From assembly GCA_900079685.1 (NCBI GenBank), contig LT599018.1, forward strand, positions 1,448,970-1,512,969: a stretch of 64,000 nt of DNA, given 5' to 3'. The stretch comes from an uncultured delta proteobacterium. GTDB lineage: Bacteria; Desulfobacterota; Desulfovibrionia; Desulfovibrionales; Desulfovibrionaceae. The notes beneath the pieces are model-generated. The model was given only the letters and a program-made list of their open reading frames with translations. It searched no databases and was not told the origin of the DNA. Positions 10,676 through 13,335 of the stretch are shown here, one piece after another. Position 1 is the first letter of the stretch, and each line of letters opens with the position of its first letter. A program made the translations under genes and the position numbers.

Positions 10676-11614
10676 TTACTCGTCGGTAAAAAGCCTGGTT
10701 GAAAGGTACCGTTCCGCCGTGTCGCAGACAATGAACACGATGCGCTTGCCCCGCAGGGCCGGGTCGGCTGCGAGCCGGGCGGCGGCAAGGCCGGCGGCGC
10801 CCGAGGAAATGCCGCACAAAATGCCTTCCTCGCGGATCAGGCGTCTGGCAAAGTCCAGGGCCTCGTCCGTGGTGACCGTCAGTACGCCGTCAAGCACGCT
10901 CCGGTCAAGAACCTTGGGCACGAAGCCCGCGCCGATTCCCTGGATGCCGTGTTTCCCCGCCGCCCCGCCTGAAAGCACCGGCGACTCGGCGGGTTCCACC
11001 GCGTAGACCCGGATCTTCGCGTTCAATTCCTTCAGCCGTTTGCCGACCCCGGTGACCGTGCCGCCGGTTCCGGCAGCGGAGACGAAAACGTCCACCGTGC
11101 CGTCCGTATCGTCCCATATTTCTTCCGCCGTGCTCGAGTAATGGGTTGCCGGGTTGGCCGGGTTGTCAAACTGGCCGAGCATGACCGCGCCCGGGGTTTC
11201 CTTCACGATCTTTTCCGCCTCGGCCACGGCCGCGCTCATGCCCCCGGCCGCCGGGGTCAGGATCAGCGTGGCGCCGAGGCCGCGCAGCATGGTTTTGCGC
11301 TCCTCGCTCATGCTTTCCGGCATGGTCAGGATCAATTTGTACCCCTTGACCGCCGCGGCGAAGGCCAGCCCTATGCCGGTGTTGCCGCTCGTCGGCTCCA
11401 CGATCACCTGCGCGGGGGAGCGGCCCGGGGTGAGCCGCCCGGCTTTTTCCGCATCCCGGATCATGCCCATGGCTATCCGGTCCTTGACGGAGGAAGCGGG
11501 GTTGAAAAATTCAAGTTTGGCAATAACTTCCGCCCCGTCTTGCGGGACAACGCGGTGCAGGCGCACAAGGGGCGTTTTCCCCACCAGGGCGGTCATATCG
11601 GGTGCGATGCGCAT
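10676..11614 (-). CDS. cysK: cysteine synthase (O-acetylserine sulfhydrylase)
   Basis: A fold-type II PLP enzyme of 312 residues that makes cysteine from O-acetylserine and sulfide. Signatures are the PLP lysine in NPASSVKDRI (Lys44), the EPTSGNTGIG substrate loop, the AAGTGGTVTGVG phosphate-binding loop and the GISSGAA C-terminal motif. The start at 11614 has a textbook AGGAGGA ribosome-binding site; the frame continues about 190 codons upstream but that part runs antisense to the next gene and is not coding. It forms a cysK-cysE operon with a three-base gap, so the two partners of the cysteine synthase complex are made together. No regulatory box was recognised upstream. Confidence 0.95.
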   Translation of the reverse strand: MRIAPDMTALVGKTPLVRLHRVVPQDGAEVIAKLEFFNPASSVKDRIAMGMIRDAEKAGRLTPGRSPAQVIVEPTSGNTGIGLAFAAAVKGYKLILTMPESMSEERKTMLRGLGATLILTPAAGGMSAAVAEAEKIVKETPGAVMLGQFDNPANPATHYSSTAEEIWDDTDGTVDVFVSAAGTGGTVTGVGKRLKELNAKIRVYAVEPAESPVLSGGAAGKHGIQGIGAGFVPKVLDRSVLDGVLTVTTDEALDFARRLIREEGILCGISSGAAGLAAARLAADPALRGKRIVFIVCDTAERYLSTRLFTDE

Positions 11615-11686
11615 AAATCCTCCTGAAAGAACCGGATAAGGATGCCGTAAAACCAGCCGGGTTACAACCTCGGCGTAAAGCAACCC

Positions 11687-11713
11687 TAAAGATACACGAA
11701 AAAGAGCCGATAG
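11687..11713 (+). promoter_or_regulatory. sigma-28 (FliA)-type promoter
   Basis: TAAA at 11687-11690, a 15-base spacer, and GCCGATAG at 11706-11713 match the flagellar sigma-28 consensus (TAAA-N15-GCCGATAA) at 11 of 12 positions with ideal spacing. It lies 43 bases upstream of the start codon of the unknown gene at 11757. Confidence 0.7.
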
Positions 11714-11756
11714 GGAGAGTGAAGATTTATACCCCATACCCAGAACGAGGTGAACC

Positions 11757-12485
11757 ATGAGCGCGATATCACCCATTGTGCAGCAGATGCGGGGGCCGCT
11801 GGACGTAACGCCCCAGGAAACGGCGCAACAGAATAAAGCCGCATATCTCGCGGCGGGCAAGGAAACCTCCCGCGCCATGGGGGACTCCCTGACCGGGGAA
11901 AATTCCCTGGAAGTTCCCGCAGGCAACGACACCGTGACCATTTCCGAGGAAGCCCGCACCATGCGGCAGCGCATGGCTGAAGACAAGGAAGCCGAGAATA
12001 AAAACGGCCCTGACGGAGAAACCGCCCCCGGCGCCAAGGAAAGCGTCCATACGGGCGTGGCCGGCGCGGTCGAGGGCGAAGAAATGAGCGCCGCCGAGCG
12101 GGCCAGGGAAACCATCCTCAAGCAGATCAAAGCGGTGAGGGAAAAGATCGAACAGGCCAAGCAGCGCCTTGCCGAGGTTTCCGCCACAAACGGGGCGGAC
12201 GGTGCCGCGGCGGCCGGATCCTCGGCCCAGGCGCCCTCAGCCGAAGGAAAAGAAGCCGCCGTCCAGGCGGTTCAGGGCATGGGCAACGCCATGGGAGGCG
12301 CGGCGGAATCCGAGGCCATCCAGGCGGAAATCAAAATCCTGGAGCAACAGTTGCAGACGCTATACTCGCAGTTGCAAAATTCCGCCTCTAACGGCGGCGG
12401 TTCCGCGGCCACGGGCACGGCGGGCATCGGCGGCGCTTCCAACGGCCCCAGCGGGCAGGGCGAGCGAATTTCCGTCAGTGCCTGA
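11757..12485 (+). CDS. unknown coiled-coil protein, probably flagellar/motility regulon
   Basis: The 242-residue product is Ala/Glu/Gly/Gln-rich and soluble, with no signal peptide. Near residue 57 it has a DTVTISEEAR motif, a pattern often seen in small proteins of deltaproteobacteria and reminiscent of the FlgM-type D-V-S-EA segment. Residues about 110-142 form a charged helix with heptad character, a second Gln/Glu helix lies around 182-206, and the tail is Gly/Ser/Asn-rich. A GAGGTG ribosome-binding site precedes ATG 11757 and a sigma-28-type promoter lies just upstream. I do not recognise a named family. The promoter suggests expression with late flagellar and chemotaxis genes. The gene is monocistronic, divergent from cysK and ended by a terminator. 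Confidence 0.75.
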   Translation: MSAISPIVQQMRGPLDVTPQETAQQNKAAYLAAGKETSRAMGDSLTGENSLEVPAGNDTVTISEEARTMRQRMAEDKEAENKNGPDGETAPGAKESVHTGVAGAVEGEEMSAAERARETILKQIKAVREKIEQAKQRLAEVSATNGADGAAAAGSSAQAPSAEGKEAAVQAVQGMGNAMGGAAESEAIQAEIKILEQQLQTLYSQLQNSASNGGGSAATGTAGIGGASNGPSGQGERISVSA

Positions 12486-12504
12486 CCCTTCCTTATAAAA
12501 ATAT

Positions 12505-12537
12505 CGCAAAGGCCTGCCGCCCGGCAGGCTTTTGCGT
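12505..12537 (+). terminator. terminator after the sigma-28-linked gene
   Basis: A stem of about 12 bp around GCCTGCCG/CGGCAGGC (12505-12537) contains one G-T pair and ends in TTTT. Confidence 0.8.
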
Positions 12538-12569
12538 TGCCCGCCGGACTGTAAAATCCGCATTTTTAC

Positions 12570-12598
12570 TTGACAGGCCATTTTGCGGGAGGTAAAAA
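12570..12598 (+). promoter_or_regulatory. sigma-70-type promoter of the rimP-nusA-infB operon
   Basis: TTGACA (12570-12575), a 17-base spacer and TAAAAA (12593-12598) form a strong housekeeping promoter about 135 bases before the rimP ATG. Confidence 0.7.
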
Positions 12599-12681
12599 AC
12601 CGCCTATCAGTAGAAGGGTTCTTCCTCCGCCTGTTCGCGCAGAACCTTTCGACATCCTGAGCAGCCTTTGCGGCGTATCCG

Positions 12682-12708
12682 GGGTGGCCTGACGGCCTCC
12701 CTTTTTTT
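12682..12708 (+). terminator. leader terminator/attenuator upstream of rimP
   Basis: A stem of 12682-12689 with 12694-12701 (7 of 8 pairs, TGAC loop) is followed by seven T residues. It lies between the promoter and the rimP start, so transcription must read through it. This is compatible with attenuation or antitermination control of an operon that itself encodes NusA. Confidence 0.6.
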
Positions 12709-12735
12709 TAGCCCTTTTGTAGGGCAGAGAGCACC

Positions 12736-13335
12736 ATGAACGAATCGACCCTTGCCCGGACCATTGCCGACCTCGCCCGGCCCCTGGCCGCCTCGCTGGA
12801 CCTTGCCGTCTGGGGCGTGGAGGCCATGCAGGGCAAGCGCGCGATCATCCGGGTCTACGTGGAAGGCGAGGGCGGCGTGGATATCGACAAGTGCGCGGAA
12901 CTCTCCCGCCTCCTGGGGCTGACCCTGGACGTGGAAGACGTTATTCCCGGCGCGTACGTTCTGGAAGTGTCCTCCCCCGGCCTTGAGCGGACGTTTTTCA
13001 CGCCGGAACAACTGGCCGCCCGCGTGGGCGAGACGGTGGAAGTAACGCTCCATACCCCGGTCGAAGCGTACCCCGGACGGAAAAAAGTGCTCGGAACCCT
13101 GACGGAGGCGTCCGGCGGCACCTTTTCGGTCGTGCCCCTCGATACTCCGAAAGATTCCCCGGACGATGCGCCGCTGGCGGCCGTTTTTGCCTGGGACGAC
13201 ATAAAGAAAGCAAAACGCGTGCATTTTCTGCCCGAAACGCCCGAACCGGCGAAGGGCAAAAAGCCGAAAACGGCAAAGCCCCCCAAGGGAAAAAAGACCG
13301 GGGGCAATGAAAACGAAGACGACGCGGCCCTATAG
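12736..13335 (+). CDS. rimP: ribosome maturation factor RimP
   Basis: The 199-residue protein is needed for 30S subunit maturation. The N-terminal domain (about 1-85) has the family pattern LDLAVWGVE ... ID-CAELSR ... VLEVSSPGLERTF. The C-terminal Sm-like domain follows (about 90-165). Beyond this is an unusual Lys/Pro/Gly-rich tail (about 170-199), longer than in most RimP proteins and probably disordered. An AGAGAG ribosome-binding site precedes the ATG. It is the first gene of the operon with nusA, ylxR and infB, about 60 bases before nusA, the classic arrangement in proteobacteria. Confidence 0.95.
   Translation: MNESTLARTIADLARPLAASLDLAVWGVEAMQGKRAIIRVYVEGEGGVDIDKCAELSRLLGLTLDVEDVIPGAYVLEVSSPGLERTFFTPEQLAARVGETVEVTLHTPVEAYPGRKKVLGTLTEASGGTFSVVPLDTPKDSPDDAPLAAVFAWDDIKKAKRVHFLPETPEPAKGKKPKTAKPPKGKKTGGNENEDDAAL

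Follow-up and report, generated by a model that had tools for sequence, protein, structure and literature searches.

In Escherichia coli, sigma-28 (FliA) is described, in the excerpts available, as being inhibited by FlgM and as serving as the export chaperone of FlgM (PMC3861889). The E. coli gene flxA has a mapped FliA site, is FliA-dependent and, in the available part of that account, has no obvious flagellar function (PMC4183435); the sequence at the mapped site is TAAAGATTTTTTTGTGCATGCCGATAG. In an excerpted expression table, flxA appears among motility and chemotaxis genes (PMC11237407). The flagellar co-expressed determinants (Feds) of Campylobacter are described in excerpt as sigma-28-dependent (PMC5223770), as is predicted for the protein analyzed here, and their secretion has been reported. 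FliA-dependent FlxA-like proteins are already known, and what appears to be new at the present locus, judging from its sequence, is an FlgM-type motif on such a protein. Among the titles and abstract openings listed from one open-access collection for FlxA-like (PF14282) proteins and Desulfovibrio FlgM, no report of the motif or of the family was found.

The locus lies in a 64,000-nucleotide stretch of DNA (the window) from an uncultured delta proteobacterium of the Desulfovibrionaceae, and its features are collected in Table 1. In a second genome of the same genus (G008), the orthologue is split over two partial contig pieces, one beside cysK and the other beside genes that we take to be rimP-nusA. 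Comparison with these pieces gave dN/dS values of about 0.32 (111 codons) and 0.31 (156 codons), which indicated that the 242-aa open reading frame (ORF) is a real gene. Judged by their translations, its neighbors in the window are presumably a divergent cysK, with a serine acetyltransferase gene beyond it, and rimP-nusA-infB downstream. Because a hairpin follows the stop codon, the gene is apparently a single-gene unit; a terminator scan did not list this hairpin. A single-sequence search detected an orthologue in 7 of 99 genomes of the family. A profile of six orthologues found matches in 67 of 247 genomes of the order, nine of them at E ≤ 7.8e-44; the remaining matches (E 6.6e-10 or weaker) mostly spanned the motif and the first coil.

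Table 1. Features of the locus in window coordinates, and the paralogue encoded elsewhere in the same genome.
Feature	Position	Strand	Basis or description
Sigma-28 -35-type element TAAA	11687..11690	+	sequence; conserved in orthologues
Sigma-28 -10-type element GCCGATAG	11706..11713	+	N15 from TAAA
Candidate ribosome-binding site GAGGTG	11747..11752	+	sequence; AACGAGGTG conserved in G008
Gene for predicted 242-aa FlxA-like/FlgM-motif coiled-coil protein	11757..12485, stop included	+	ATG start; dN/dS versus G008
FlgM-type motif DTVTISEEAR, residues 58-67	11928..11957	+	sequence, alignments
Predicted helix 1, residues 112-151	12090..12209	+	AlphaFold2 model
Predicted helix 2, residues 167-212, first part of low confidence	12255..12392	+	AlphaFold2 model
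Gly-rich conserved C-terminal tail (GTAGIGG...SGQGERISV)	12393..12482	+	alignment of six orthologues
Candidate terminator hairpin after the gene	12505..12536	+	15-nt arms, 93% complementary, 2-nt loop
178-aa paralogue	L149:640-1173; C1:2969767-2970300	minus	motif and sigma-28-like site

The preliminary description had placed a sigma-28-type promoter with exact spacing and 11 of 12 matching bases directly upstream of a 242-residue ORF, and the sequence confirmed this: TAAA-N15-GCCGATAG (11687-11713), with the 15-nt spacer GATACACGAAAAAGA, matches 11 of the 12 letters and is separated from the start of the gene by 43 bp. When the 150 bp preceding the gene were shuffled 300 times with dinucleotides preserved, no shuffle reached this score, and the best match on the antisense strand of the same 150 bp was 7/12. 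With no more than one mismatch allowed, the pattern occurred 44 times in the 4.0-Mb genome, versus 17 times for a reversed control pattern. A lone 11/12 match was therefore not decisive, and conservation was used to decide. Many of the genomic sites fell within long ORFs, where they are probably chance occurrences.

Conservation was scored as the best match at N15 spacing no more than 150 bp from the start codon at ten orthologous loci. Six loci from a scan of genome contigs were left out as not independent, one of them encoding the same protein as the G174 locus. A score of at least 10/12 was found at eight of the ten loci (window, 11; G008, 12; G025, 11; G174, 11; G035, 10; G062, 10; G217, 10; G185, 10; G011, 8; G019, 7). 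At the seven of these loci other than G185, 0 to 7 of 300 shuffles reached the observed value. In G008, which has the same neighboring genes, the 12/12 site is located at -58, and the promoter block has been kept while the rest of the intergenic stretch diverged. The region directly upstream of the G019 orthologue gave a best N15 match of 7/12, which 294 of 300 shuffles equaled; a 10/12 site is found there before a 226-aa ORF that precedes the orthologue and apparently heads a two-gene operon. For G011, the best N15 match within 150 bp was only 8/12, a value equaled by 164 of 300 shuffles. Conservation of the promoter before orthologues, the check proposed with the preliminary description, was hence seen at eight loci and, via the operon, in G019, but did not extend to G011.

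The genome encodes FliA (TIGR02479, 249.6 bits; cut-off 189.6), and sigma-28 sites with at most one mismatch precede flgM, fliD and genes for flagellin, a flagellin-like protein, an SprA-related protein and a Cache/PAS protein, which we take to be a chemoreceptor. The conserved promoter, the presence of FliA and the same pattern before flagellar genes together link the window gene to the flagellar regulon. The earlier reading of the element as a sigma-28 promoter is well supported by these observations; the gene appears to have a conserved promoter of the type that characterizes the regulon and is very probably switched on with the last flagellar genes. The role as a new motility or surface factor that was also suggested there would be a further step beyond this link.

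Several other genes of this genome lie behind similar sites. The SprA-related protein (PF12118, 89.8 bits; L088:1634-2479) has a 12/12 site upstream, and a 277-aa protein with weak likeness to the flagellin N-terminus (25.5 bits, cut-off 26.6; L093:1204-2034) has an 11/12 site. One-mismatch sites precede ORFs of 232 aa (L089:950-1645) and 103 aa (L092:606-914), neither of which has a Pfam match.

Across the order, 219 of the 247 genomes contained an FliA above cut-off. The family profile matched in 67 of these 219 genomes and in none of the 28 without FliA (Fisher p 1.5e-4), a comparison in which a genome counted as FliA-lacking when its best FliA-model E-value was weaker than 1e-50. It presupposes that both searches drew on one and the same genome set, and the 67 matches consist largely of the weaker, shorter relatives. 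A smaller size or lower gene content of the FliA-lacking genomes may also account for the pattern.

No Pfam or NCBIfam model matched the window protein above its cut-off; SlyX, THOC7 and similar families gave sub-threshold matches only and were rejected. The coiled coil claimed in the preliminary description was recovered as two predicted helices in an AlphaFold2 model based on six sequences (mean pLDDT 58.8, pTM 0.35). Ten-residue blocks of the first helix had pLDDT values of 67-96, with residues 111-140 confidently predicted; the second was confident at about residues 181-210 only (pLDDT 88-95). In the model, 57 mostly disordered residues precede the motif, and the N-terminal third contains two low-confidence helices (residues 19-42 and 64-79). 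The Gly-rich tail is unstructured in the model yet conserved, with G223, G233, G235 and R237 invariant among the six orthologues. The predicted architecture would accordingly comprise a disordered N-terminus, the motif, a helical hairpin and the Gly-rich tail. Foldseek comparison of this low-confidence model with the PDB yielded no match at E ≤ 0.001 (345 at E ≤ 10), and no fold was therefore assigned.

The motif DTVTISEEAR matches the opening element of the FlgM domain, an identity that goes beyond the earlier sequence reading. The assignment was based on the FlgM encoded in the same genome, in which the Pfam FlgM match (residues 44-98, profile positions 1-55) begins exactly at D44 of DRVSLSPEA; FlgM chains in the PDB have the looser versions DKVTLSKIA and ESVQISETA. 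FlgM (anti-sigma-28 factor; PF04316, TIGR03824) and the window protein share D-x-V-x-[IL]-S-x-E-A, which in FlgM opens the domain some 40 residues into the chain, and flgM of this genome, like the window gene, has a sigma-28 site upstream. Unlike FlgM, the window protein lacks the remainder of the domain and has a long predicted helical hairpin instead. In profile comparisons with FlgM, the window family scored 30.3 (probability 43%; shuffled maximum 18.1) and a group of shorter relatives 47.4 (probability 94%; shuffled-column maximum 17.1). Consistent with the absence of the rest of the domain, masking of the motif left scores of 16.0 and 21.2, respectively, and the Pfam and NCBIfam scans gave no FlgM match for the window protein.

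A stringent DNA pattern for the motif (D-x-V-x-[ILM]-S-x-E-[AG], with Ser as TCN only and no TTR leucine) had three matches in the source genome, in the window gene, flgM and the gene of a 178-aa paralogue, which are preceded by promoter sites scoring 11, 12, and 10 of 12. In 44 genomes of the family, the same pattern had 80 matches, versus 6 for a reversed control. A looser pattern gave five matches in the source genome versus two for its control, and the extra two have Thr in place of Ser. Short motifs can arise by convergence; DSVRISDEA, for example, occurs internally in a long protein that we take to be topoisomerase I. Flagellin, FliD and four other proteins encoded behind sigma-28-like sites in the source genome lack the motif. 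The idea of a general late-export signal was rejected since neither flagellin nor FliD carries it, and the motif is likewise not a mark of all genes behind sigma-28-like sites.

To relate motif and promoter, a stretch of 600 bp ahead of the motif (shorter at contig ends) was scanned at the 80 places for sites of at least 10/12 at N15 or N16, the N16 spacing having been added after a first pass. A site preceded 26 of the 51 ORFs with the motif in their first 62 residues, as against 1 of 29 others, which comprised 27 internal motifs and 2 interrupted frames (p 5.6e-6). Counted among the 51 are FlgM proteins, window-gene orthologues and a small number of questionable ORFs; without the window gene, the count is 25 of 50. 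Among the same 51, a score of 10/12 was reached by 4 reversed and 1 antisense control sequences. When divided into classes, which were defined after the matches were known, promoters preceded 5/5 members of an RTYGKQ family, 18/35 other ORFs with an N-terminal motif and 3/11 with an FlgM-like start. Since FlgM-like ORFs contributed so few, the association rests on the non-FlgM classes. The single promoter-bearing exception among the 29 (L158), a 296-aa ORF that carries the motif at residue 143, may be of the same kind as the ORFs with an N-terminal motif.

Two of these groups deserve separate description. The 178-aa paralogue resembles the window protein in its GDTVTISEEARKLSE motif, which starts at residue 49 (D at 50), and in its upstream TAAT-N15-CCCGATAA site; its C-terminal half differs, and no Pfam family matched it at E ≤ 0.01. 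The RTYGKQ family ([RN]TYG[KR]Q ... D-x-V-[TA]-IS; 128-139 aa) was found in five genomes (L108:1227-1619, L122:1387-1800, L154:724-1140, L160:727-1110, L166:727-1110). Each of the five members is preceded by a sigma-28-like site that matches at least 11/12 with N15 or N16 spacing, and a Pfam scan of one member (L166) gave nothing at E ≤ 0.01.

Profile comparisons also connected the window protein to FlxA. The six-orthologue profile scored 93.4 against ten shorter Desulfovibrionales proteins (134-205 aa), and 57.3 with the motif masked (shuffled-column maximum 14.2). Of four shorter relatives scanned, three passed Pfam FlxA (PF14282; 28.7, 34.6, and 33.3, cut-off 26.3), while the fourth scored 23.3. 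The ten-sequence profile of the shorter family scored 34.9 against E. coli FlxA (b1566, PF14282), a value reached by none of 100 heptad-block shuffles (maximum 22.7) and none of 100 residue shuffles. The FlxA link rests on these shuffles because hhalign gives over-optimistic E-values for coiled coils. The window protein itself did not reach the PF14282 gathering cut-off, FlxA was not among its matches up to E 10, and three of the six orthologues listed FlxA weakly (best E 0.064). Direct kinship of the window family with E. coli FlxA found no support in hhalign (3%), and the connection works via the shorter relatives only, whose coil matches that of E. coli FlxA. Profile evidence by this route supports a link between the window protein and FlxA-like coiled-coil proteins. 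Both E. coli FlxA and the window protein are predicted small coiled coils behind a sigma-28-type promoter of near-identical sequence (TAAAGAT...GCCGATAG in flxA). In contrast to the window protein, E. coli FlxA has 110 aa, is encoded in the Qin prophage and lacks both the D-x-V-x-IS motif and the Gly-rich tail; it is also distinct from the FlxA of the Flx-Hdr complex of Desulfovibrio.

These comparisons suggest that the window protein is likely a late flagellar accessory handled by the partners of FlgM, that is, FliA and/or the export route. In its specific form, to which we assign a probability of roughly 0.45, this reading holds that a late, class-3 flagellar gene is transcribed by FliA and that the FlgM-type motif docks its product on a partner of FlgM, most likely FliA, by which it is held or escorted to export. 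Transcription from the TAAA-N15-GCCGATAA-type promoter would mean that the protein is made only once the hook-basal body is finished. The motif would then dock it on a partner also used by FlgM, most likely FliA, and the protein would be held by FliA or travel with it to the flagellar export apparatus; there, the helical hairpin could pair with itself or with another partner. The step from the motif to FliA or export is the weak one of this explanation. Absence of the motif from flagellin and FliD favors something specific to the partners of FlgM over a general export tag.

A FliA-dependent, FlxA-like protein that stays cytoplasmic and takes part in neither export nor the control of FliA is a somewhat unlikely alternative, in which the motif would reflect another shared feature, such as stability, or convergence. 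E. coli flxA itself provides a precedent in the excerpted account (PMC4183435), and the PF14282 matches of the shorter relatives and the predicted helical hairpin would fit equally. However, the stringent motif occurs in only three genes of the source genome, flgM among them, and each of the three is preceded by a sigma-28-like site; this favors a shared flagellar partner. It is improbable that the window protein, like a Fed, is exported via the flagellum and acts outside the cell or on the filament without touching FliA. The long disordered N-terminus of the model is compatible with such a role, as is the occurrence of an SprA-related protein behind a 12/12 sigma-28 site in the same genome, since the C. 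jejuni SprA-related protein CJM1_0395 is named as a good candidate for secretion by the flagellum in the available part of a study of the sigma-28-dependent Feds (PMC5223770); the absence of the motif from flagellin, FliD and this SprA-related protein argues against it. A role as an export chaperone or adaptor comparable to FlgN, FliT or FliJ, suggested by the predicted two-helix hairpin, is highly improbable: these families were absent from the 13 families matched up to E 10 by the window protein and from the best 25 of 65 matches for the six orthologues, and the low-confidence model had no PDB match at the Foldseek threshold given above. A chance promoter-like sequence before a gene outside FliA control, as the 44 versus 17 genomic occurrences and the many sites inside long ORFs might suggest, is very unlikely in view of the eight conserved loci and the absence of a detectable sigma-70-type site in 11400-12800.

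Handling of the window protein by FliA or the export route could, more speculatively, be one instance of a wider arrangement. The first element of FlgM would then be a portable tag for docking on FliA or for late export, carried by a class of small FliA-transcribed Desulfovibrionaceae proteins (FlxA-like coils, the 178-aa paralogue and the RTYGKQ family) whose products compete with or follow FlgM on FliA and feed back on the late flagellar switch; we consider this extension unlikely on present evidence. FliA regulons hold small proteins of no known function, of which flxA is an example, and a motif shared with FlgM offers a testable handle on their binding. If the motif marks export, it would be a recognizable tag for some non-structural flagellar cargo, of a kind stated, in the available part of the C. 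jejuni study, not to have been identified in that organism (PMC5223770). If instead FliA is its docking site, FlgM would not be the only client that takes part in the timing of flagellar assembly in these bacteria.
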